This document shows, piece after piece, positions 12,644 through 27,125 of a DNA stretch of 33,328 bases. The notes below the pieces were generated by a model. The model made no database searches, had not been told where the DNA came from, and was given only the letters and a program-made list of their open reading frames with translations. The position numbers and the translations under genes are program-made. Source of the stretch: Acidobacteriota bacterium (GTDB taxonomy: Bacteria > Acidobacteriota > Thermoanaerobaculia > Thermoanaerobaculales > Sulfomarinibacteraceae); assembly GCA_013152895.1 (NCBI GenBank), contig JAADFN010000024.1, forward strand, positions 1-33,328. Reading direction: 5' to 3'. How positions within the stretch are numbered: the first letter of the stretch is position 1; each line of letters begins with the position of its first letter.

Positions 12644-12696
12644 TTACGCTAAGATACGGGGGACGGGGCATTGTGGACCCGCCGAGGAGAAAGTTG

Positions 12697-13773
12697 ATGC
12701 CGTTGGGACGAAGACAGCTTGGCGTGTTGAACGAGGTCGTGTGGCGGTACCTCCGTCGAGGGGTTCCCGTCTCTTCGACCCAGGTGGCTTCTGCGCCCGC
12801 CGTCAGTCTCTCCGCCGCCACGGTGCGAAATGTCATGGCCCAGCTCGAAGAGGAGGGCTTCCTGGAGCGTTCCCACCGGTCCGCCGGGAGGGTGCCGACC
12901 GACCGGGGGCTTCGCGTGTTCATCGACACGCATCGCGGCACGTCGCGGTTAAGAAGGCAGCGCGCGACGGACCTGGTGTCGCGGATCACCGTCCACCGGC
13001 GGGATCTCGTCGAGGACGTCGAGTGGGTGGCGCGCCTTATTTCCGACGTCACCCATGAGGCTGGCGTCGTGGTCCGGCCGATCGACAGGGAGCGATGCCT
13101 GGAAGCAGTCTCGTTCGTTCCGCTTGGAGACGGGAGGGTGCTGGGGGTTGTCGTCACGACGGACGGCGCGGTGGAAAAACGCGTCTTCCGGGCGCCTGCT
13201 ACCATGACGGGCGAGGAGCTGACCAGGAGCGCCAACGTCTTGAGCCGGGAGTTTCACGGGCAGAGGGTCAGCCAGATCGAGGCGGCCTTGCGCCGCGTGA
13301 GCAGTGGGGCGCATCCCGGGACCCGGCCGGGGCCGCTCCCCGGCGCCGAGGCGTCCCTTCCCCTGATGCGCGAGCTGCTCTCGGGCTTGCCCGAAAAGGT
13401 CGAGATGGCGGTCGCAGGCGCCGGGAACCTGGCCGCGTCCAGGGACTTTTCGAAAGGCCGCGAGCTGGGCACGGCGCTGGCCGTGCTCGAAGACCGGAAG
13501 AGAATTCTCGAGGCCCTGAGGCGGTTTCTCGTAGGGGACCGGACGCGTGTGATCATCGGCCGGGAGTCCGAGATCACGGCGCAGGGCAATCTCGGGATGG
13601 TCGCGATGGCCTTTTCTCAAGGCGGGAGGCGGATCGGCGCCGTCGGCGTCCTCGGACCGCGGCGGATGGATTACATGAAGATACTGCCGGTCGTGGAGCT
13701 CATCGGATCCACGTTGACCGAGATGCTCGATCAGATGGGAGCGGACGAAAATGCGGGAACGAAACATGCGTGA
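12697..13773 (+). CDS. hrcA: Heat-inducible transcription repressor HrcA
   Basis: Repressor of class I heat-shock genes that binds CIRCE operators and needs GroEL for activity in studied species. Its 358 residues are of usual length. An N-terminal winged helix (QLGVLNEVVWRYL, VSLSAATVRNVMAQLEEEGFLE, HRSAGRVPTDRGLRVFID) is followed by the GAF-like region and the C-terminal signature ALAVLEDRKRILEAL...VIIGRE, LGMVAMAF and IGAVGVLGPRRMDY. The ATG at 12697 follows GAGGAG; an in-frame GTG eight codons earlier has no ribosome site. It heads an eight-gene run on this strand. No CIRCE-like TTAGCACTC-N9-GAGTGCTAA can be seen in the 89 bp upstream. Confidence 0.94.
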   Translation: MPLGRRQLGVLNEVVWRYLRRGVPVSSTQVASAPAVSLSAATVRNVMAQLEEEGFLERSHRSAGRVPTDRGLRVFIDTHRGTSRLRRQRATDLVSRITVHRRDLVEDVEWVARLISDVTHEAGVVVRPIDRERCLEAVSFVPLGDGRVLGVVVTTDGAVEKRVFRAPATMTGEELTRSANVLSREFHGQRVSQIEAALRRVSSGAHPGTRPGPLPGAEASLPLMRELLSGLPEKVEMAVAGAGNLAASRDFSKGRELGTALAVLEDRKRILEALRRFLVGDRTRVIIGRESEITAQGNLGMVAMAFSQGGRRIGAVGVLGPRRMDYMKILPVVELIGSTLTEMLDQMGADENAGTKHA

Positions 13774-14434
13774 AGACGGCAAACGGGAGACGAAAGCCGG
13801 GACCGCGGCAAACGGAGAGACCGCGCCAGCGGCTCCCGCTGCACCATCTCCAGCCGAACCGGGTGATGTGGAGACGCCGCCGGCCGGGGAGGGCGGCGAG
13901 GATGAGCAGAAAACGGTCCTCGACGAGATGGACCGTCTTCGCACGGAGATGGATGATCTCAAGGAGCTGTACCTGCGGAAGCTCGCCGAGTTTGACAACT
14001 TCCGCAAGCGGGTCGAACGGGAGCGCGAGGAGATCCGGGAGACGGTCTCGGCCGATCTCGTGCGCGAGCTTGTTCCAGTGCTCGACAACTTCGAGCGTGC
14101 CCTGCAGCATGCCAGCGAGAGCGGCTTCGACGCGTTCCGCGAGGGGGTTGAGCTCATTGCCAAGCAGCTCTGGGAAGCCCTGTCGCGCCGGGGGTTGAAG
14201 AGGCTGGATCCCATCAACGAAAAGTTCGATCCGGTTTATCATGAGGCTGTTCAACGGGTAGAGGACTCCGGGCACGAGCCTGACCAGGTCGTCTCGGTTC
14301 TTGCAAAGGGGTACACCTTTGGAAAGCGCCTGGTCAGACCGGCGATGGTCGCTGTCGCCGTTGGGTCGAAAGATGGCGGGGAGACCGGCGAGGCGCCGGA
14401 GGCTGGCGCCGGGGAGAGCGAGGACCGGCCGTGA
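13751..14434 (+). CDS. grpE: Nucleotide exchange factor GrpE
   Basis: Cochaperone that releases ADP from DnaK. The 227-residue protein has a disordered Ala/Pro/Glu-rich N-terminus (about 50 residues), a long coiled coil ([30 protein letters not shown]), and the C-terminal beta domain with the family signature [22 protein letters not shown] followed by [16 protein letters not shown]. The start overlaps the hrcA end by 23 bases; a second ATG five codons later is possible. The stop overlaps the GTG start of dnaK. Confidence 0.95.
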
Positions 14435-16305
14435 GCAAGATCATCGGCATCGACCTTGGAACGACGAACTCGTGCGTTGCCGTCGTTGATGTCACCAAAC
14501 CGGTCGTTATCCCGAACCGGGAAGGCGCGCGCACAACGCCTTCTGTCGTGGCTTTTACGCAGGATGAAGAACGCCTGGTCGGCCAGATTGCCCGGCGGCA
14601 GGCGATGACCAATCCGGCGAACACCGTCTACGCGGTCAAACGGCTGATCGGCCGGCGTTTTTCGGCGACGGAGGTGCAGCGGGCCAAGGAGCTGGTGCCG
14701 TACGCCATCGTCGAGGCGTCCAACGGCGACGCGTACGTGGAGGTCCGGAACCGGCAGTACAGCCCACAGGAGATCTCGGCCCAGATTCTCACGGAGATCA
14801 AGGGGTTTGCCGAGACGTTCCTGGGAGAAGAGGTGACACAGGCCATCATCACGGTTCCGGCGTATTTCGACGACTCGCAACGCCAGGCGACGAAAGACGC
14901 GGGAACCATCGCCGGGCTCGAAGTGCTCCGGATCATCAACGAGCCGACGGCCGCCTCGCTGGCCTACGGCTTCGGGCGCGAAGGCCGCGAGACGATCGCC
15001 GTGTACGACCTCGGCGGGGGGACGTTTGATATCTCCGTGCTGGAGATCGGCGACGGCGTCTTCGAGGTCAAGTCGACGGCCGGCAACACGTTCCTCGGGG
15101 GCGAGGATTTTGATCAACGCGTGATGGCTTACCTGCTCAACGAGTTCAGGAGCACGACCGGCATCGATCTGTCCGCAGACACGATGGCGATGCAGCGGAT
15201 CAAGGAGGCGGCCGAGGCGGCCAAGTGCGAGTTGTCGACCGCCGAGGTTGCCGAGATTTCGCTTCCATTCATCGCGGCCGACGTCACCGGTCCCAAGCAT
15301 CTTCAGGTCCAGCTGACCAGGAGCCAACTCGAGGATCTCGTGCGCGATCTCGTGGAGAAGACGCTCGACCCGTGTCAGAACGCACTCGAGGCGGCGGGGT
15401 TGAACCCGGGGGAAGTCGACCAGGTAATCCTGGTTGGCGGCCAGACTCGCATGCCCCTGGTCCAGGAAACGGTGACGAGATTCTTTGGCCATCCCCCCTC
15501 CCAGGAAATCAACCCGGACGAGGTCGTTGGGATCGGAGCGGCCATCCAGGGCGGCATCCTTCAGGGCGAGGTCAAGGATCTCATCCTGCTCGACGTGACG
15601 CCGCTGTCCCTCGGTATCGAAACGCACGGCGGTCTCTTCACCCGGATCATCGAGCGGAACTCGACGATCCCGACGAAGAAGTCGATGATCTTCACGACGG
15701 TCGCGGACAACCAGACGACCGTCGAGATTCACGTGCTCCAGGGCGAGCGCGGCCTGGCCGCCGAGAACCGTTCCCTGGGACGTTTCGACCTCGTCGGCGT
15801 GCCACCGGCCCCGCGCGGGGTGCCCCAGATCGAGGTGACCTTCGCCATCGACTCCAACGGCATCGTCAACGTCAGCGCGCGGGACCTTGCCACCGGCAAG
15901 GAGCAGAGCATCGAGGTCAGCCCGGCGGGCGGCCTGTCGAAGGCGGAGATCGACAGCCTGATCGCGGAGGCGGACAAGTTTCGCCAGGAGGACCAGGCCC
16001 GGCGGCGGTTGCGGCAGATGCGGAACCAGCTCGAGGGGCTGCTCTACACCAACGACCGGGTGTTCCAGGAGTTCGGGGGCAGCCTCGAGAAGGAGGACCG
16101 GGAACAGGTCCGTTCCACGTTGAGCCGGGCGAGGAAGGCGCTGAACGTGGAGGAGGAATCGGTGCTCAGCGAAGCGATCTTGGCGGTGCAGGAAGCCGCG
16201 CACGTGCTGGCGCAGGTCATCATGTACAACCCGATGTCGATGTTCGGACAATCTACGCGGAAATCGGGGAGCAATCCTGATGATGGTTCGAAGCAGGGGG
16301 AGTGA
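14431..16305 (+). CDS. dnaK: Hsp70 chaperone DnaK
   Basis: ATP-driven chaperone that binds exposed hydrophobic segments. The protein has 624 residues and a GTG start overlapping the grpE stop (GTGA). Nucleotide-binding motifs: [14 protein letters not shown] near the N-terminus, [32 protein letters not shown] and [13 protein letters not shown]. The hydrophobic linker [15 protein letters not shown] leads into the substrate-binding domain and the helical lid. The C-terminus ends [10 protein letters not shown] without the acidic EEV-type tail seen in many DnaKs, and the protein is slightly shorter than the E. coli form (638). Confidence 0.97.
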
Positions 16306-16314
16306 GTTCTTCAG

Positions 16315-17454
16315 ATGAGCACGACGGCGAAGCGAGACTACTACGAGGTTCTGAACGTCAGCCGGGACGCCGGCCTCGACGAGATCAAGGCCGCCTACCG
16401 CCGCATGGCCATCCGTTTCCATCCGGACAAGAACCCGGGTGATCCCAGGGCGGAGGAGAGGTTCAAGGAAGCCTCGGAAGCGTACGCCGTGCTCTCCGAT
16501 CCCGAGAAGCGCCAGCGGTACGATCGTTTTGGGCACGAGGGCGTCGGCGGGGAAGGCTTTACCGGGTTCAACTCCGAGTCGTTCATCGATTTCGCCGACA
16601 TTCTTGGCGACATCTTCGGGTTTGGCACGATCTTCGGATCGCGGCGAGGCCGGAGCCAGTCGGGTTCGCAACGGGGAAGCGACCTGCGCTACACCATGAG
16701 CCTGACGCTTGAAGAGGCGGCGTCGGGGGTGACGCGGACGATCCGGATCCCCAGGTTGGAAGCGTGCGAGGCGTGCGGGGGGAGCGGGGTGGAGCCGGGA
16801 ACGAGGCCGGAAACCTGCCCGACCTGCGGCGGTCGGGGCCAGGTCGGGTACCGGCGCGGTTTCCTGACGGTGGCACAGACCTGTCCCACCTGCGGCGGTC
16901 GGGGCCAGGTCGTGCAGCACCCGTGCCGGGCGTGCCGGGGCCGCGGCCGGATCGAGGACGAGACGACCCTCGAGGTCAAGGTGCCGCCGGGCGTGGACAG
17001 CGGGGTGCGCCTCCGGATGAGCGGCGAGGGGGAATCGGGCGTTCGCGGGGGCCGGCGCGGGGATCTGTACGTCATCGTTTCGGTCGAGCCCCACGACCTT
17101 TTCGAGCGCGAGGGGCCTCACCTCCACATGAAGCTTCCCATCAGCATTTTCCAGGCCGTGCTGGGCGCACGGATCACGGTGCCAACGATCTCGGGGGACG
17201 CGCGGGAGATCACGATCGATCCCGGCTCGCAGCCGGGCCAGGTCATCCGGGTCCGTGGCGCCGGGATGCCCCAGCTGGGGGGGCGCGGCGTGGGAGACCT
17301 CCTGGTGCACCTCGATGTCGTTGTGCCAAGGAAGCTCAGCAAGGAGCAGCGAAAGCTGATCGCGCAGGCCGCGGCCCTGGGCGGCGAGCAGCTGACCGAG
17401 GATGACGAGGGCCTGTTGCAGCGGCTCAGACGGCGTCTGGCCAACGAAGGCTGA
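16315..17454 (+). CDS. dnaJ: Hsp40 cochaperone DnaJ
   Basis: J-domain protein that delivers clients to DnaK and stimulates its ATPase. The 379-residue protein has a J domain at 1-75 with HPD at 36-38, a short Gly/Phe region (GGEGFTGFNSESF), and a zinc domain with four CxxCxGxG-type repeats (CEACGGSG, CPTCGGRG, CPTCGGRG, CRACRGRG). The two C-terminal beta domains end at GDLLVHLDVVVP. The second and third zinc repeats share a 25-base identical DNA stretch, suggesting recent gene conversion or strong codon constraint. It starts nine bases after dnaK. Confidence 0.96.
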   Translation: MSTTAKRDYYEVLNVSRDAGLDEIKAAYRRMAIRFHPDKNPGDPRAEERFKEASEAYAVLSDPEKRQRYDRFGHEGVGGEGFTGFNSESFIDFADILGDIFGFGTIFGSRRGRSQSGSQRGSDLRYTMSLTLEEAASGVTRTIRIPRLEACEACGGSGVEPGTRPETCPTCGGRGQVGYRRGFLTVAQTCPTCGGRGQVVQHPCRACRGRGRIEDETTLEVKVPPGVDSGVRLRMSGEGESGVRGGRRGDLYVIVSVEPHDLFEREGPHLHMKLPISIFQAVLGARITVPTISGDAREITIDPGSQPGQVIRVRGAGMPQLGGRGVGDLLVHLDVVVPRKLSKEQRKLIAQAAALGGEQLTEDDEGLLQRLRRRLANEG

Positions 17455-17469
17455 CCGCCGGGAGGACGC

Positions 17470-18309
17470 ATGGATTACCTCACCGTCACGGCTGTCTTCC
17501 GGCAGCTCGATGACGAGACGCTGGCCGGGATTCTCGATCCGCTGCCGATCCTGGGATGCCAGGTGGAAGATACGGGCGGTTGGGTCGTGGTGACCGTCTA
17601 CTGTGACGAGAAACGGCGCGCGAGTCTTCAGACCATCGGCGATGCGCTCGCCGCGGCGGGGGGCGAGCGGATCGAGACGGGCTCGCTCGGCGATCGCGAC
17701 TGGCTCGCGAGCTACCGGGCGAGCAGCCAGCCGTTCCCGGTGGGGCGTCTCTGGTGGCTCGATCCCCACCCCGAGGCGCCGTCTCCGCCTCCGCCCGGCC
17801 GGATTCGCCTCGCGGTCGAACCCAGGTCCGCGTTCGGCTCCGGATCCCACGAGTCCACGCAGCTTCTCCTGCTCGCCCTCGAAGAGATGGACCTCGTGGG
17901 AATGCGCGTGCTCGACGTCGGCACGGGGAGCGGGATTCTATCCCTGGCCGCGGCGGCCCGGGGCGCGGCGTGGATCGCCGGGTTCGACATCGATCCCGTG
18001 TCCGTTTTCGTTGCGGCGCGAACGGTCCGCGAACAGGAGCGGCCCGTGGACGTCAGCCTCTTCGTCGGGCCGCTCGAAGCGGTCGGCTCCACGTTCGATG
18101 TGGTCCTGTGCAACATGCTGTGGTCCCAGATGGAGCCGTTGATCCCGGGGCTGGCACGGCATCTCTCCCCTTCCGGGACGCTGCTGCTCTCGGGGCTGTT
18201 GGCGGCCGATCACGTGGCGGCCACCGGCGCATGCCGGGGTGCGGGCCTCGAAGCGACGGCGAGCAGGAGCCTGGGGGAATGGCTGGGGCTGGAGGCGCAT
18301 CATGGGTGA
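17470..18309 (+). CDS. prmA: Ribosomal protein L11 methyltransferase PrmA
   Basis: SAM-dependent enzyme that trimethylates L11. The 279 residues show the N-terminal substrate domain (DWLASYRASSQPFPVG), the PrmA-specific AFGSGSHESTQLLL at about 121-134 and SAM motif I VLDVGTGSGILSLAA near 148-162. The NPPF/NIL-like catalytic loop reads CNMLWSQMEPL rather than the usual ANIL. GGGAGGA precedes the ATG. A Pro-rich loop (PEAPSPPPPGR) joins the two parts. It overlaps rsmE by eight bases. Confidence 0.92.
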   Translation: MDYLTVTAVFRQLDDETLAGILDPLPILGCQVEDTGGWVVVTVYCDEKRRASLQTIGDALAAAGGERIETGSLGDRDWLASYRASSQPFPVGRLWWLDPHPEAPSPPPPGRIRLAVEPRSAFGSGSHESTQLLLLALEEMDLVGMRVLDVGTGSGILSLAAAARGAAWIAGFDIDPVSVFVAARTVREQERPVDVSLFVGPLEAVGSTFDVVLCNMLWSQMEPLIPGLARHLSPSGTLLLSGLLAADHVAATGACRGAGLEATASRSLGEWLGLEAHHG

Positions 18310-19021
18310 GCGCTGGGCGCTCGTCGATCCGGGCGTCCTGGTTGCCGGGCGCCGGCTCGAGCTCGATGCCGCGGAGGCGCGCCACGTCACGGGCGTGCTC
18401 CGGCTGACCGCCGGGGAGGCGATCGTGCTGGCCGACGGACGGGGCGCCGTTGCCGCCGCGGTAATCGGGGAGGCCGGAAAGCGGTGCGTGACGGTGGAGA
18501 TCTCAGCCGTCACGCACCACCCCCATCTTTCGGGCGGCGTCACGGTGGCACTGGGCGTCCTGCACTCCCGGGCGATGGACTGGGCCGTTCAGAAAGCGGT
18601 TGAAACCGGCGCCGAACGTCTCATTCCCGTCCTCGCCGGGCGTTCGCAACTTGGCGCCGGGGCGGTTCGCCACAGGGTCGGCCACTGGCGGCGCGTGGCG
18701 CGGCAGGCCATCAAGCAGTGCCACCGGCCGTGGGAGATGGACGTCGCAGATCCACTCGATTTCGACGGGCTCATCGCCGCCGTGCCACCCGCATCCGGGA
18801 TCGTCGCCGACCGGGGCGGACGTCTCCCGTGGCAGGTGGCAACCGGTCCCGGGGCCGTTCTCCTCATCGGACCCGAAGGCGGCCTGACGGCCGAGGAGCT
18901 CTCCTCGCTGGACCGGGCGGGTTGGCGGCGGGTGAGGCTCGGGGAGCACGTGCTGCGCGCGGAAACGGCGGTCGCTGCCGGAACGGCCATGCTGAGCCTT
19001 GGCGCGGCGCAGGAAAGGTGA
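18302..19021 (+). CDS. rsmE: 16S rRNA m3U1498 methyltransferase RsmE
   Basis: SPOUT-class methyltransferase that modifies U1498 of 16S rRNA. The 239 residues have the N-terminal PUA-like part (EARHVTGVLRLTAGEAIVLADG), AVQKAVETGAERLIPVLAGRS, and the trefoil-knot SAM site LLIGPEGGLTAEEL...LGEHVLRAETA. The ATG at 18302 lies inside the end of prmA; an upstream in-frame extension is a prmA shadow. The prmA-rsmE order following dnaJ is also found in Gram-positives and some other groups. Confidence 0.94.
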   Translation: MGERWALVDPGVLVAGRRLELDAAEARHVTGVLRLTAGEAIVLADGRGAVAAAVIGEAGKRCVTVEISAVTHHPHLSGGVTVALGVLHSRAMDWAVQKAVETGAERLIPVLAGRSQLGAGAVRHRVGHWRRVARQAIKQCHRPWEMDVADPLDFDGLIAAVPPASGIVADRGGRLPWQVATGPGAVLLIGPEGGLTAEELSSLDRAGWRRVRLGEHVLRAETAVAAGTAMLSLGAAQER

Positions 19022-19025
19022 GCCC

Positions 19026-19823
19026 ATGGACGTGAAGATGGTCGATTCGCACGCGCACCTTGCGATGTTCGAACCCGCAGAAATCGAGGAGATCCTCGAC
19101 CGGGCGCGAGCCGCCGGGGTGTGCGGCGTGATCGTTCCGGCGACCGGGGCGGACGACCTCGATCGCGTGGCTGGCCTTGCGAACGAGTACCCGGAGACGG
19201 TGGTGGCGGCCCTCGGGGTTCATCCGCACGAGGCGTCGTCGCTCGATGCCGGGCTCAAGGCGCGTCTCGAGCGCAGCCTCGACCGGCCCGGCATCGTCGC
19301 CGTTGGAGAGATCGGGCTTGATTATCATTACATGAGCTCACCGCGGGAGGATCAGCTGCGCGCCCTCGAATGGCAGCTCGGCCTCGCCGCATCGGCCGGC
19401 CTGCCGGTGATCCTCCACAACCGCGAGTCGTGGGAGGACATGGAGCGCGTGCTGAGCTCTCGCGCGGGAGACATCCGCGGCGTCTGCCACTCGTTCGCCG
19501 AAACGCCGGACGCGGCGCGGTTCGTGGTGGCGATCGGGCTCAAGGTTGGAATATCGGGGATGGTGACATTCAAGAACGGCGGCAACGTCCGGGAGATCGT
19601 GCGGGTGCTCGCGCCCGGCGATCTCCTCGTCGAAACGGACAGCCCGTACCTGGCTCCAACGCCGAACCGGGGGAAGCGAAATGAGCCGGCCTACGTCGTG
19701 CTAACGGCGCTGAGGGTTGCCGAGGAGCTGGGGATCGCCCTGGACACGCTGGCAGACACGACGACCGGCAACGTCCGGGAGCTTTTCAACCTCGACCCCG
19801 CGTGGCCCGGGACCACCGCATGA
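19026..19823 (+). CDS. tatD: TatD-family metal-dependent deoxyribonuclease
   Basis: TIM-barrel hydrolase of the TatD group, Mg-dependent 3' to 5' DNases involved in DNA repair. The 265-residue protein carries DSHAHL (His9, His11), GEIGLDYH, a His in LHNRE, CHSF and VETDSPYLAP, which together supply the metal ligands. The ATG at 19026 follows AGGAAAGG with normal spacing. It begins four bases after rsmE and its stop overlaps the next start (ATGA). Confidence 0.93.
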   Translation: MDVKMVDSHAHLAMFEPAEIEEILDRARAAGVCGVIVPATGADDLDRVAGLANEYPETVVAALGVHPHEASSLDAGLKARLERSLDRPGIVAVGEIGLDYHYMSSPREDQLRALEWQLGLAASAGLPVILHNRESWEDMERVLSSRAGDIRGVCHSFAETPDAARFVVAIGLKVGISGMVTFKNGGNVREIVRVLAPGDLLVETDSPYLAPTPNRGKRNEPAYVVLTALRVAEELGIALDTLADTTTGNVRELFNLDPAWPGTTA

Positions 19824-20665
19824 GCGGTGCGAGACGGATCTTCTGCCCCGGCCTGAAGCGCGAGGTTACCCTTCCTGGCCGGGTGAGCCGGGCGGTCTCG
19901 CTCGCGCCGAGCCTGACCGACACGGTCCACCGGCTGGGGCTCGGCGGGGCGCTGGTGGGCCGGTCGGCGTCGTGCCACAGGCCCCCGGAGGTGAGCGGCC
20001 TCCCCGTCGTGGGAAGTTACACGAGCGTCACGCGGAGCCGGCTCGACGCGCTCGATCCCGACCTGATCCTGATGATCTCCGGGGCGCAGGAGGAGCTGGC
20101 GGGCCGTCTGGCGGACGAGGGCTTTCCCGTCTATCAGTTTCCGCTTCCGGCCTCGCCGTGGGGCATCCTCGAAAACCTCGCCACCGTCGCCACCGTCATG
20201 GGCTCGCCCGGAGCGGCCGGAGGGCCGCTCGGGGAGCTCCACGCTGCGCTTCTTGCAGTCCATGATCGTCTTCCGGCGCTTGGAACCTACGCGGAGATCG
20301 ATCTCGGCGGGCCGGTCACGATCGGGCCCGGGTCGTACGTCTACTGGGCGCTCCGGTGGCTCGGGCTCGACGTCCTGACGCCCGGTGTGGCCAAGGCTTA
20401 TTTCACGCCGGACGACGCATCGCTCGCGAGGATGGCGCCGGATCTCATCGTCTATGATCCGAAACCCGGGGGAGCCGTCCCTCTCGGTCGCGTGGAAGAT
20501 CATCTCAAGGCCCGCGGGCTGGGAGGCTGGTTCCGCGCCGGCGCCCGGCTCGTCGTGACCGGGGGGGACGTGCTGGCTCACTCCGGGCCGTGGCTCATCG
20601 AGTACGGCCTGCCGTGGCTGGTCGGCCGGATCCTGGCTGCGGACGGCGACCGCGCTTCAATTTGA
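19820..20665 (+). CDS. BtuF-like helical-backbone metal receptor, apparently without signal peptide
   Basis: A 281-residue protein with the two-lobe fold of cobalamin/iron-siderophore binding proteins: RAVSLAPSLTDTVHRLGLGGALVGRS, then LDALDPDLILMISGAQEE, GPGSYVYWALRWLGLDV and LARMAPDLIVYDPKP. These are the standard segments of class III periplasmic receptors. The N-terminus (MSGARRIFCPGLKREVTLPG) has no hydrophobic export signal, unlike true periplasmic members, and no transporter gene is nearby. It may bind a corrinoid or heme in the cytoplasm, or be exported in another way. It is the last gene of the hrcA run (ATGA overlap with tatD), and its final 71 bp overlap the convergent gene. Confidence 0.82.
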   Translation: MSGARRIFCPGLKREVTLPGRVSRAVSLAPSLTDTVHRLGLGGALVGRSASCHRPPEVSGLPVVGSYTSVTRSRLDALDPDLILMISGAQEELAGRLADEGFPVYQFPLPASPWGILENLATVATVMGSPGAAGGPLGELHAALLAVHDRLPALGTYAEIDLGGPVTIGPGSYVYWALRWLGLDVLTPGVAKAYFTPDDASLARMAPDLIVYDPKPGGAVPLGRVEDHLKARGLGGWFRAGARLVVTGGDVLAHSGPWLIEYGLPWLVGRILAADGDRASI

Positions 20666-21014
20666 GCGGTTTGACATCGATGACGATCATGCCTTCACGC
20701 TCGTCGTAGCGCGCCTCAAAGCTCTTTGGGGCATCGAGAGACAGCCCGAAATGCTCGAAGAATTGTGGCGCCTTGAGCCCGAGCGTGCGCCGTCTGCGCA
20801 CCAGCCGGAAGGCAGCCTCATCGCCCGGATCTGTCAGCGGCTTGACGCCAACGCGTTTCTTCGCCTTGTCGAAGAAAAGAACGGCGTGCGTCGCCTGATG
20901 CAACTTGAAGCTTTCCACCGCTTCCGGGTCGAAAGAGATCAAGCCGCTCGGACGTAGGGTGGCCTTTGGTCCACGGGATTTCGGCGATACGGGTACGTAT
21001 TTTTCAAACATCAT
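20595..21014 (-). CDS. Hypothetical protein, 139 residues
   Basis: Not recognised. The gene has a strong ribosome site (GGAGG) directly before two ATGs at 21014 and 21011; spacing favours the second. The protein begins MMFEKYVPVSPKSRGPKATLR, shows alternating strands (AVLFFDKAKKRVGVKPL, ARYDEREGMIVIDVKPL) and ends in a basic, Gly/Arg/Pro-rich tail. The tail lies in the 71-bp overlap with the convergent BtuF-like gene, so it may have been gained by loss of an earlier stop. No signal peptide or enzyme motif. The good ribosome site and non-repetitive protein make it likely real. Confidence 0.72.
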   Translation of the reverse strand: MMFEKYVPVSPKSRGPKATLRPSGLISFDPEAVESFKLHQATHAVLFFDKAKKRVGVKPLTDPGDEAAFRLVRRRRTLGLKAPQFFEHFGLSLDAPKSFEARYDEREGMIVIDVKPLKLKRGRRPQPGSGRPATAGRTR

Positions 21015-23468: not shown

Positions 23469-24833
23469 TCATGACCGGCCGGGAGCGCCCTCGAAGTAGC
23501 CGGTCAGGTCCTGGCGCGCGAGGCCCTGGTCGAGGGCCGTCCGCGCCACCGCCCGCGCGACGGCCCGGTGGACGGCGCGGTTGAGCGGGTTCGGCACCAG
23601 GTCGCCTTCCGGTGTCATGTCGGCAATCGCGTGAGCGGCGGCCAGGTACATCTCCATCGTCAGCTTCGGCGTGCCCGAGTCGACGGCGCCGCGCAGGATC
23701 CCCGGGAAGCCGAGGACGTTGTTGACAACCTTGCCGTCGGCGGCGAACGCCGCGCCGGCCGCAAGGGCCTCCTCCGGCTCGATTTCGGGCGACGGGTTGG
23801 ACAGGGCCAGGATGATCTGTCCCGGCCGCACCCAGGCCTTCTTGATGAGACCGGGAACGCCGGTCGTCGAGACGACGACGTCGCAGGCATCCATGATTTC
23901 CCGCAAGGAAGCGGCCCGGCCGCCGGCCTTTTCCAGGCGCCTGGTGGCGCCTGGATCGAGATCGGCGCCGAGCACGGGACGACCACTCTCCTGCATCATC
24001 ATCCTGGCGATGGACAGGCCCGCGGCCCCGAGGCCGATCTGCCCGACGGTGACCTCGTCCAACGATCTTTCGACCTTGCGAAGCGCGTTCATGAGGGCTG
24101 CCGCAACGACAACGGCCGTCCCATGCTGGTCGTCGTGCATCACGGGGCGGTCAAGCGTCTCGATCAGCGCTTCCTCGATGTCGAAGCACCGGGGCGCCGA
24201 AATATCTTCGAGCTGGATCGCGCCGAAGGTCAGGGCGATGTTCTGGACGGTCCGGATGATGTCCTTGGTGTCCTTCGTCTTGAGAAGGATCGGCATGCCG
24301 GAGAGGCCGACGAGGCTCTCCATGAGAGCGGCCTTGCCCTCCATGACCGGCATGCCTGCCAGGGGACCGATGTCGCCGAGGCCGAGAATGGCGGTTCCGT
24401 CCGTGACGATGGCGATCAGGTGCGGAATCGCCGTGTAGCGGCGGGCCTGGGAGGCGTCATTTTCAATGACGCGGCAGACGCCTGCGACGCCGGGCGTGTA
24501 GACCCGGCGCAAATCCTGCAACGTGTCGATCTTGTACCGGCTCCGCACGGCGATCTTGCCGCCCTGGTGCAGCTCCAGGACATCGTCCCGGATCTCGACA
24601 AGCTCGGATCCGTCGGTCGCCTTGACCGCCTCGACCACCAGATCGAGGTCCGACTGCTGCGACACGTACACGACGATGTCCCGGACGACGTGTTTGTGGT
24701 CCATCCGGATGAGAGAAATCTCACCGGCCAGAGCGCCGGCATTTCCCAGGGCGACGAGCAACTGGCCGAGCGCGCCGGCCCGCTGCTCGTTCCGGACCCG
24801 GATCGTTCGCATGATGCTGTACTCAGTCCACAT
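23469..24833 (-). CDS. NAD(P)-dependent malic enzyme with N-terminal ACT domain
   Basis: Oxidative decarboxylation of malate to pyruvate and CO2. The 454-residue protein starts with an ACT regulatory domain at about 9-85 (RTIRVRNEQRAGALGQLLVAL...RDIVVYVS), then the short bacterial malic enzyme core: VYTPGVAGVCR at 111-121, VTDGTAILGLGDIGP at 143-157, GKAAL with Lys167, the metal-binding LEDI, DDQHGTA, and the nucleotide-binding IGLGAAGLSIA. The ACT domain suggests control by an amino acid or other small ligand. A strong AAGGAGG precedes the ATG at 24833. Immediately upstream lie two tandem palindromic elements; the element edge (TATGCT on this strand) may supply the -10 box. Confidence 0.93.
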   Translation of the reverse strand: MWTEYSIMRTIRVRNEQRAGALGQLLVALGNAGALAGEISLIRMDHKHVVRDIVVYVSQQSDLDLVVEAVKATDGSELVEIRDDVLELHQGGKIAVRSRYKIDTLQDLRRVYTPGVAGVCRVIENDASQARRYTAIPHLIAIVTDGTAILGLGDIGPLAGMPVMEGKAALMESLVGLSGMPILLKTKDTKDIIRTVQNIALTFGAIQLEDISAPRCFDIEEALIETLDRPVMHDDQHGTAVVVAAALMNALRKVERSLDEVTVGQIGLGAAGLSIARMMMQESGRPVLGADLDPGATRRLEKAGGRAASLREIMDACDVVVSTTGVPGLIKKAWVRPGQIILALSNPSPEIEPEEALAAGAAFAADGKVVNNVLGFPGILRGAVDSGTPKLTMEMYLAAAHAIADMTPEGDLVPNPLNRAVHRAVARAVARTALDQGLARQDLTGYFEGAPGRS

Positions 24834-24844
24834 ACAACCTCCTT

Positions 24845-25027
24845 AGCCAGCATATCTCACGCGCTTCCTGCTGCGACCGAGGATACGCCGGCCATTGCGG
24901 TGTTTCTCCCGGCGGTGTCGCCTGCGGCGTGCCGCGAGCACGCCTCGGCCCCACCTTGGTCGAAACGCCACACCGGCGGGCGTCTCCCCGGTCTCGCGAC
25001 GAAAGTCCGTGAGATCTGCTGGCTGCC
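24845..25027 (+). repeat. Palindromic element, tandem copy 1
   Basis: A 168-bp core (24851-25018) bounded by CATATCTCAC and its near-complement GTGAGATCTG. The two halves are imperfect inverted repeats along their length: blocks such as ACCGaGGAtACGCC, GGCC and GTTTCtCC on the left recur as the reverse complement on the right, and the middle holds CGGC-GT-GCCG. It is nearly identical to copy 2, which starts 179 bp later. The 11-bp junction, CTGGC-T-GCCAG at 25019-25029, is itself a perfect palindrome. The left edge touches the ribosome site of the malic enzyme gene. Confidence 0.92.
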
Positions 25028-25206
25028 AGCATATCTCACGCGCTTCCTGCTGCGACCGAGGATACGCCGGCCATTACGGTGTTTCTCCCGGCGGTGTCGC
25101 CTGCGGCGTGCCGCGAGCACGCCTCGGTCCCACCCTGGTCGAAACGCCACACGGGCGGGCGTCTCCCCGGTCTCGCGACGATGCTCCGTGAGATATGCGG
25201 GTTCGG
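25028..25206 (+). repeat. Palindromic element, tandem copy 2
   Basis: A second 168-bp core (25030-25197) with perfectly complementary ends CATATCTCAC and GTGAGATATG, differing from copy 1 at only a handful of bases. The right tail GCGGGTTC matches the ends of the copies at 4585 and 8353. Together the two copies fill most of the 448-bp gap between the malic enzyme and the TPR gene. The rest (25207-25281) shows nothing recognisable. No protein is credible here: frames through the element are open on several strands simply because of its composition. Confidence 0.92.
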
Positions 25207-25281: not shown

Positions 25282-26241
25282 CTATTTCGGGGGCGCATCC
25301 GTGTGGGGGATGGCGGTCATCCGGATCATCCTGAAGATCGCGGTTCCTGCGGGGATCATCGGCGGAGGCGGATCGACGGGCGCGCCGAACTCCAACTCGG
25401 AAAAGTGAGTCTTGTAATTCCAGCGGAGGATGAGCCCATGCTTCTTTTCGGGGTGGGTCACCGTCGGCCGGCCGAAGAGGCCAAGAACGCCTGCGACGGT
25501 CGTTTTCCAATCATGGGCACGGTCCAGGGCGATCGTGTAGGGAGAGTAACGGAGCACGTTCTGCGCGTCGATCAGGATCTCGCTGACCCGGCCGGTGTCG
25601 TCGAACGAGAAGGCCCACAGGACGCGGGGGCCGGCGCTGGCCTGGAGAACCGGCCGTTTGGCTCCCGTGCCGCCGAGGTGGAAGATCTTGGCGACGTCTT
25701 CCCGGGACGAGCCAAGCCCAATGCCCGCGAAGGTGCCAGCCTCGAGGTTGGCCTCGAGCGGTATCGCGTGCTCGAGCAGAACCCTCCACGTCCTCGGATC
25801 CGCCAGGAACTGCCGCTCGCCCGGAAGGGTGATCGCGGGAAACAGGTTTTTCGCGCCGGAGGAAAGGATGCCCTCGAAGAGCTTCAGAGCCTCCTCCCGC
25901 CGGCCCGTCACCCAGGCGGCGGCTTCGCGGTACAGCGCCATCTGCGCATTCCTCGGCTCGAGCGTGCCCGCGCGCCCGAGAAACTTGTACGCCAGCTCGT
26001 AACGGGCCAGGTGGAAGTACGAGACGCCGAGATCGGCGTTGATCCAGAAACGGGTCGTCGCGTCGAGATCCTGGCGGTCGGCGTACGGCTCGAGGAGCGT
26101 CAATGCCTGCTGGTAGCGGTGGTGCTCGAGCAAGCTGGCTGCCCGGTCCAGCGGAACGGCGCCGGGCTTGCCGGCGAGCGCAAGGTGGGATGCAGCCACC
26201 AGAGCCAGGCCTGCGATCAACCCTGAACGGACCAGCTTCAT
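25282..26241 (-). CDS. Exported TPR-like protein
   Basis: A 319-residue protein with a clear Sec signal (MKLVRSGLIAGLALVAASHLALA, cut after residue 23). Residues about 30-140 are paired helices of TPR type: AASLLEHHRYQQALTLLEPYA, FWINADLGVSYFHLARYELAYKFL and AQMALYREAAAWVTGRREEAL. The C-terminal part (about 170-300) is beta-rich and begins GIGLGSSREDVAKIF, resembling the short motif found in BamE-like and other small envelope domains, followed by VLWAFSFDDTGRVSEILID. Function unknown; periplasmic. The ATG at 26241 has no ribosome site; TATCCT lies seven bases upstream. It is divergent from the nucleosidase gene. Confidence 0.82.
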   Translation of the reverse strand: MKLVRSGLIAGLALVAASHLALAGKPGAVPLDRAASLLEHHRYQQALTLLEPYADRQDLDATTRFWINADLGVSYFHLARYELAYKFLGRAGTLEPRNAQMALYREAAAWVTGRREEALKLFEGILSSGAKNLFPAITLPGERQFLADPRTWRVLLEHAIPLEANLEAGTFAGIGLGSSREDVAKIFHLGGTGAKRPVLQASAGPRVLWAFSFDDTGRVSEILIDAQNVLRYSPYTIALDRAHDWKTTVAGVLGLFGRPTVTHPEKKHGLILRWNYKTHFSELEFGAPVDPPPPMIPAGTAIFRMIRMTAIPHTDAPPK

Positions 26242-26399
26242 GACAACGAGGATAGCACCGTCACCCGGTTGGTTTCGGCCTCCGATGCCGGTCCCTTCTC
26301 GTTGCAGGTTGACGGATTTGACGTCACGATGGATCTCTGACGTGTACCTGCCCCGGGGCATCGGATAAGGTGATACCATGCTGCCGTTCCGGAGGGAGT

Positions 26400-27125
26400 G
26401 TGCAGCCCACCATCGTCGTGATCGTTGCCTATGCCTTTGAAGCCCGCGCTGCCGCGAGCGTTGCACGCGATATGACGAGAAAGCGCTGGGGCGCCTGGAC
26501 CCTGTCGACCGGCGAGATGTGGAACGTCCCCGTCGCCATCATCCGGTGCGGCCCCGGGAAGGCGGCGGCCGCAGCAGCAGCCCAGGCAGCCATCGGGTAC
26601 TTCGAGCCGATCGCGCTACTCAGCTTTGGCATGGCCGGCTCCCCCGACGTCGATCTGAGGGCTGGAAGCCTGGTCGTCCCGAACGTCGTCCTCGACGTGG
26701 CACTGGGCCGTGTCCAGGATCTTCCCGTCGAGATGCCCGTACGGTTCGAGCCGGAGGCCGATCTGCTGGCTGAGCTGCTCGACGTACCCGGCACCAGGCC
26801 GGCGTGGCTGGCGTGCTGGGAGGGGCAGGTTGCGTCCCCCGCGCACCGCCCTCCCGTGGAGGCTCGCGGCCAACGGATCGTCGTCGACTGGGAGAGCGCG
26901 GCGATCGCCCACGTCGCATCGTTGTGGGACGTGCCGTGGGCCGCGCTGAAAGTCGTGTCCGACCATGGAGAACCGGAGCGCCTCCGGAGTATCGCGGCCA
27001 ACGCTCGCCGCCCGCTCCACTGGGCCGCCGAGGTGCTTCGCCGCGCCTGCGTTCACTTCGCCGAGAAACGGGTCACGACCCAGGAGATCCTGGAGCCCGG
27101 TGGCGCTGACGGCGAAGCTTGTTGA
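26400..27125 (+). CDS. Nucleoside phosphorylase-superfamily protein (MTA/SAH nucleosidase-like)
   Basis: A 241-residue member of the PNP/UDP phosphorylase superfamily. The pattern fits: start VIVAYAFEARA, LIRCGPGKAAAAAAAQAAI, LLSFGMAGSPD (in place of GTAGG), and the ribose-binding segment VDWESAAIAHVASLWDVPWAALKVVSD with Glu and the downstream Asp conserved. The lid loop is short and the family's nucleobase-binding residues are not certain, so the substrate could be methylthioadenosine, adenosylhomocysteine or a hopanoid-pathway adenosyl compound. The GTG at 26400 follows GGAGGGA closely. It is transcribed alone, ahead of the efflux operon. Confidence 0.8.
   Translation: MQPTIVVIVAYAFEARAAASVARDMTRKRWGAWTLSTGEMWNVPVAIIRCGPGKAAAAAAAQAAIGYFEPIALLSFGMAGSPDVDLRAGSLVVPNVVLDVALGRVQDLPVEMPVRFEPEADLLAELLDVPGTRPAWLACWEGQVASPAHRPPVEARGQRIVVDWESAAIAHVASLWDVPWAALKVVSDHGEPERLRSIAANARRPLHWAAEVLRRACVHFAEKRVTTQEILEPGGADGEAC

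Follow-up and report, generated by a model that had tools for sequence, protein, structure and literature searches.

A BtuF-type binding protein with no export signal encoded behind tatD in an Acidobacteriota genome: a candidate cytoplasmic corrinoid-binding protein

Background

BtuF (E. coli b0158; Pfam PF01497) is the periplasmic class III receptor of the importer BtuCD-F. As described in PMC3741162, two glutamates of BtuF bind two arginines of BtuC in the BtuCD-F complex, and equivalent docking residues are required in FecB, FhuD2 and FeuA. That source numbers the BtuF pair Glu74/Glu202; in the E. coli precursor as aligned here, the glutamates stand at 72 and 202 with an isoleucine at 74. 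The heme receptors HmuT, BhuT, RhuT and a Shigella receptor have the same fold, are also periplasmic and use docking glutamates, which in BhuT are E94/E231 according to PMC5136619. Six residues of BtuF are given as lining the corrinoid, namely Y50, W66, W85, F162, F168 and W196 (PMC5269720).

PF01497-type proteins lacking an export signal are already present in public records, where some of them are annotated 'cobalamin-binding protein'. In the open-access literature, with few subscription journals covered, we found no paper on the function of signal-less or cytoplasmic BtuF-like proteins, which is weak evidence of absence. To our knowledge, the handling and passing-on of imported B12 inside bacteria has been little described. 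Here we analyse a protein of this kind encoded in a stretch of 33,328 nucleotides, hereafter the window. This case adds that the export signal and the docking residues are lost together, that the gene occupies a fixed slot behind tatD, and that its product is related to proteins encoded in btu operons headed by a riboswitch.

Gene and genomic setting

The gene occupies 19820..20665 on the forward strand and encodes 281 amino acids plus a stop from an ATG start, the N-terminus reading MSGARRIFCPGLKREV. It closes the gene order hrcA-grpE-dnaK-dnaJ-prmA-rsmE-tatD, all on the same strand, with hrcA (12673..13773) as the first gene of the upstream heat-shock cluster, followed by grpE, dnaK, dnaJ and prmA (13751..18309), rsmE (18302..19021) and tatD, coding for a TatD-family hydrolase (19026..19823). 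The tatD stop and the start of the binding protein share an ATGA (19820..19823, forward strand), from which we infer that their translation is probably coupled. On the other side lies the convergent gene of a small conserved protein (20598..21014, reverse strand), which overlaps the gene for the binding protein at the latter's 3' end.

A CIRCE operator had no match in the window with up to 3 mismatches allowed, which gives no support to control by HrcA. A scan around the gene returned no promoter-like sites, where shuffles gave 0.3, and two terminator-like ones, where shuffles gave 1.3. No cobalamin riboswitch was detected in the window or in the stretches around the four orthologs described below, B12 genes were not seen beside any of these genes, and a PHROGs search gave no match. 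A search of the contigs of this genome placed no FecCD permease on the window contig (C24), its only FecCD matches being on contigs C15 and C3.

Orthologs and the slot behind tatD

We searched 59 genomes, the source genome included, with the window protein. Some PF01497-type match was present in 41 of them, and close orthologs (E-value 1e-73 or better) in just four other genomes, G001, G005, G007 and G010, at 51–71% identity. A profile search over 148 genomes of the class recovered the same five genomes and no other at E 1e-25. Given that the four orthologs, at this level of identity, each lie directly behind tatD, the ORF at 19820-20665 is, on this comparative evidence, not a chance ORF. All five genes are placed between tatD and the same convergent small protein, with alr next in four; in G001, no alr match was found in the 1.7 kb past the small protein. 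The source genome (G000), G001 and G005 carry the dnaK cluster on the stretch that holds the gene. About 10 kb upstream of tatD in G007 contain no match to grpE, dnaK, dnaJ, prmA or rsmE, and the 1.1 kb of contig upstream in G010 contain no rsmE match. The constant partner is tatD, not the heat-shock cluster.

Across 20 family genomes, tatD was found in 19 (E 1e-50) and the small convergent protein in 15. The binding protein sits between them in five genomes; ten more have the two side by side, the matches being 2 to 198 bases apart. Four genomes, of genus g8, encode tatD but lack the small protein, and a single family genome lacks both. The binding-protein gene is an optional extra within a fixed slot. 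On a tatD tree of the 19 genomes its presence needs 3 changes, which makes gain and loss indistinguishable. The small protein itself (139 amino acids in the window) has no match in Pfam, NCBIfam or PHROGs; its gene is convergent with tatD or with the binding-protein gene, depending on the genome, and in the window and in G001 it overlaps the end of the latter.

An initial annotation, made from the DNA alone, had described the product as a class III binding protein without a hydrophobic N-terminal signal, with no ABC transporter nearby, sharing an ATGA overlap with tatD and ending a chaperone/translation operon. The overlap is plain in the sequence, and the fold (PF01497 match, confident model, likeness to BtuF) and the missing signal are upheld by the measurements given below. 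The absence of a permease is confirmed for FecCD on the window contig, a BtuF-type importer being encoded elsewhere in the genome. The operon description fits three of the five loci, tatD being the neighbour common to all. The annotation had also proposed that orthologs be checked for the same missing signal, and a longer, signal-bearing N-terminus among them would have spoken for a start further upstream: all four others lack a signal as well, with starts overlapping the end of tatD.

Closest relatives

A profile of the five orthologs was searched against 396 genomes of the phylum. After the four orthologs present in this sample, the next matches (116–134 bits) were six proteins of family f35; proteins of the export-signal type follow from 110 bits downward, and hence the score alone does not separate the f35 proteins from them. 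In all six cases the f35 protein is a second BtuF-like protein without a signal. Five of the six neighbourhoods were examined (L067-L071), and all five show the order cobalamin riboswitch, btuB, btuF, btuC, btuD and signal-less protein, the gene of the last overlapping or abutting the ATPase gene; the names btuB and btuC reflect best-scoring NCBIfam models, under their cut-offs, together with the riboswitch. In these loci a cobalamin riboswitch precedes the B12 operon that contains the f35 gene, whereas the window gene sits behind tatD. In both f35 neighbourhoods that were translated, a signal-bearing btuF was read, with a peak hydrophobicity of 2.81 in G407 and of 1.88 in G139, where the start was set too far upstream. 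The signal-bearing BtuF proteins at L067:3490-4317 and L070:8436-9287 fall together in the tree as a divergent pair on long branches (RVVSQAVGTDELL), yet retain both docking glutamates.

The window protein is 29–32% identical to the two f35 proteins compared with it. In a tree of 68 rows, the five orthologs and the six f35 proteins form one clade with support 100/98. Signal-less proteins of Xanthomonas sacchari (WP_017915046.1) and Methylobacterium aquaticum (WP_244533785.1), both labelled 'cobalamin-binding protein', are sister to this clade without strong support (90/85). They resemble the window protein in being PF01497-like, in having no signal and in not keeping the docking pair, and they differ in their neighbours, in their low identity (26%) and in lacking H254 and the N-terminal CP motif. 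Trees constrained to unite the orthologs with the BtuF group of the source genome or with that of E. coli were rejected (p-AU 0.016 and 0.024), these groups having been chosen after a first quick tree was viewed. Six further signal-less rows are placed separately in the best tree as a group of their own. That all signal-less rows share a single origin was nonetheless not rejected (p-AU 0.262), and the 19 such rows may therefore represent as few as one event.

That second signal-less PF01497-type group of the phylum (L013, L021, L022, L027, L029 and L030) carries a GGTK motif and mostly also PDEPY, and none of its six members has both docking glutamates. Deinococcus plasmid relatives located in cob operons were considered as signal-less cousins and rejected, as the three that were translated have signal-like N-termini; the two in the tree group with export-signal-type rows. 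A 'cobalamin-binding protein' on a plasmid of Marinobacter sp. M3C (L084, 4974-5795) shows no visible signal from its annotated start, which may lie too far downstream. It has both docking glutamates and an adjoining permease gene, and was counted as export-signal-type.

Fold and ligand

The sole Pfam match of the window protein is PF01497, at 47.7 bits against a cut-off of 27.5, and the four orthologs score 40.0–62.7 bits. An AlphaFold model built from the five-row alignment has a mean pLDDT of 91.6 and a pTM of 0.87, and VIA-align superposes it on E. coli BtuF (1n4a) with Z 23.6 and rmsd 2.4 over 240 aligned residues. No NCBIfam model exceeds its cut-off: the BtuF equivalog gives 20.2 bits against 234, and the TroA-like helical backbone metal receptor model NF038402 gives 21.8 against 30, with 26.5 (under) and 34.3 (over) in the two orthologs scanned. 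The nearest named database record is from an Acidobacteria MAG (WGCW01000130.1).

Fold matches do not discriminate between a heme and a B12 receptor: in VIA-align, BtuF and the heme and siderophore receptors all reach Z 22–24 over 224–269 residues. Heme receptors fill Foldseek ranks 1–5, E. coli BtuF being at rank 8, and phmmer places two heme-binding chains of the HmuT type first (1e-5) and Vibrio BtuF third (2e-5). These ranks favour a cytoplasmic carrier of heme or of another metal chelate, in which the cleft would hold heme, a siderophore or bare metal, perhaps through C52, E159 and H254. These three residues are invariant in the five orthologs, as is C9, and in the six f35 proteins. However, C52 is also found in 30 of 49 export-signal-type rows, the VIA-align scores of the heme, B12 and siderophore receptors are level at Z 23–24, and Y67 aligns with W66 of BtuF, the tyrosine of the HmuT chain standing one position earlier. 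The sister operons are under a cobalamin riboswitch. We regard a heme or metal carrier as unlikely. Cobalamin is preferred over heme or metal chiefly on account of these riboswitch-led sister operons; that the ligand of the window protein is a corrinoid, a proposal which again leans mainly on them, we take to be about as likely as not.

The corrinoid-lining residues were compared by sequence alignment. As in BtuF, an aromatic residue is present at the Y50 place in four orthologs (W in each, with S51 in the window protein), at the W66 place in all five (Y; Y67) and at the W196 place in all five (Y or W). None of the five has an aromatic residue at the places of W85, F162 and F168. The W66 place holds W in one and Y in nine of the 49 export-signal-type rows, so that an aromatic there, untypical even of receptors, is no marker of BtuF and counts for little. 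Y67, G88, Q90, E159 and H254 are common to the 11 rows of both sister groups and occur in 9, 3, 16, 3 and 0, respectively, of the 49 export-signal-type rows. The histidine, in an H-x-G-P context (codon 20579..20581, forward strand), is thus found in every sister-group row and in no export-signal-type row; as a guess, it could be a putative ligand to cobalt or another metal.

The loss of half of the six BtuF cleft aromatics in all five orthologs, and S51 in the window protein, could also mean that the fold was retained while ligand binding was lost, the protein now binding another protein, for instance one tied to tatD, which adjoins the gene in all five genomes. We consider this quite improbable: Y67 (as Y or F), Q90 and E159 are conserved in the alignment across the 13 rows of the signal-less clade, and 14 genomes of the family have tatD without a binding-protein gene.

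Export signal and docking glutamates

The peak mean Kyte-Doolittle value (12 residues, within the first 45) is 0.96 for the window protein versus 2.19 for E. coli BtuF. Across rows we used the highest 12-residue mean upstream of the protein core, which is at most 1.45 in the five orthologs and at most 1.07 in the six f35 proteins, against 2.89 in the BtuF of the same genome and 1.56–3.43 in 38 export-signal-type loci. One signal-less row, L013 (1.58), lies just above one export-signal-type row, L011 (1.56). Since the gene start overlaps the end of tatD in all five orthologs (a GTG start being assumed in G010), there is no space for a conserved signal.

The labels 'export-signal-type' and 'signal-less' were assigned by eye and fixed before the docking glutamates were examined, and three long-branch rows (L028, L031 and Haladaptatus) were left out before the count. 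The columns of E72 and E202 hold glutamate in 49 of 49 export-signal-type rows. In the 19 signal-less rows, glutamate occurs at the first in two and at the second in five, with both together in a single row (f35_L043) and in none of the five orthologs. By alignment, the window protein has S73 in the place of E72 (codon 20036..20038, forward strand) and A200 in the place of E202 (20417..20419, forward strand; both computed from the ORF start), and the other orthologs have A/D, D/R, E/S and D/V. The spacing from the docking positions to a nearby conserved proline is equal in the window protein and in the receptor rows. Signal and docking pair go together, as would be expected had these proteins left the importer, the rows not being independent of one another. 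A cytoplasmic role is strengthened by the loss of the permease-docking glutamates: the window protein is very probably located in the cytoplasm, judging from its sequence and those of its relatives, and in all likelihood is not used as an importer receptor.

Given that the f35 genes adjoin btuCD and that f35_L043 retains both docking glutamates, one might still suppose a transporter receptor that leaves the cytoplasm with no recognisable signal or that serves BtuCD from the cytoplasmic side. This is very unlikely, as none of the 11 sister-group proteins has a signal-like stretch, ten of them miss the docking pair, and a separate signal-bearing BtuF is encoded in the source genome and in the two f35 loci translated. 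A true start further upstream, carrying a signal, is scarcely credible and was rejected: the open frame does run 45 codons upstream of the ATG, but this extension is tatD coding sequence read out of its frame, contains no hydrophobic stretch and varies from ortholog to ortholog.

Proposed role

Contig C15 of the source genome encodes another PF01497-type protein, which has a clear signal and is followed directly by an ATPase gene; this locus also has the only strong FecCD permease match of the genome (231 bits) and an upstream cobalamin riboswitch. A second FecCD match, on contig C3, reaches 34.5 bits against a cut-off of 26.5. Furthermore, a B12-type methionine synthase domain, three B12-binding domains over cut-off and a PduO-type adenosyltransferase were found. 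CbiC and CobU have no match in the genome, whose assembly is rated 97% complete. The cell probably imports B12, the absence of two families being no proof.

With this equipment, the reading we place first, at roughly even weight, is that a BtuF-type receptor has turned into a cytoplasmic corrinoid-binding protein freed from its importer. BtuCD would deliver a corrinoid, most likely cobalamin, into the cell, where it would be held in the cleft between the two lobes of the cytoplasmic protein. The latter might then buffer the corrinoid or pass it on to the adenosyltransferase and the B12 enzymes, a role proposed tentatively and by inference only. Expression would probably be coupled to tatD, without a B12 riboswitch, and in three of the five genomes also lie downstream of the DnaK cluster. 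Several observations count against the corrinoid-binding reading: the locus has no riboswitch or B12 genes, S51 replaces an aromatic, heme receptors lead the Foldseek rows, the gene is present in 5 of 148 genomes, the aromatics of W85, F162 and F168 are gone, the heat-shock setting is not constant, and the f35 relatives are distant. A more far-reaching version, in which a repurposed receptor became a cytoplasmic B12 chaperone or reservoir, having lost signal and docking pair together, gained H254 as a putative ligand on the cobalt side and had its gene moved behind tatD out of riboswitch control, seems to us doubtful. If true, it would introduce a novel functional class, that of intracellular bacterial B12 carriers with such a fold.

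The initial annotation had thought of a cytoplasmic cobalamin, heme or metal sensor or carrier, and called this unusual. The cytoplasmic part is reinforced by the lost docking glutamates and by the lack of a signal in the orthologs, with heme and metal now less favoured than cobalamin, while the findings speak neither for nor against a sensor; the second point is half right, as the window protein shares its PF01497-type domain, missing signal and missing docking pair with signal-less proteins that recur and are in part annotated 'cobalamin-binding protein'. For PF01497 proteins labelled 'ABC transporter substrate-binding protein' or 'cobalamin-binding protein', the two docking positions offer an easy check on the sequence that may tell importer receptors and cytoplasmic derivatives apart. 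A receptor fold with its export and docking features erased is a testable candidate for intracellular B12 handling.

Elsewhere in the window, at 24846-25201, we noted a direct repeat of two 177-nt copies, 95% identical and 179 nt apart from start to start, placed between ORFs of 454 amino acids (23469-24833) and 394 amino acids (25282-26466), both on the reverse strand.
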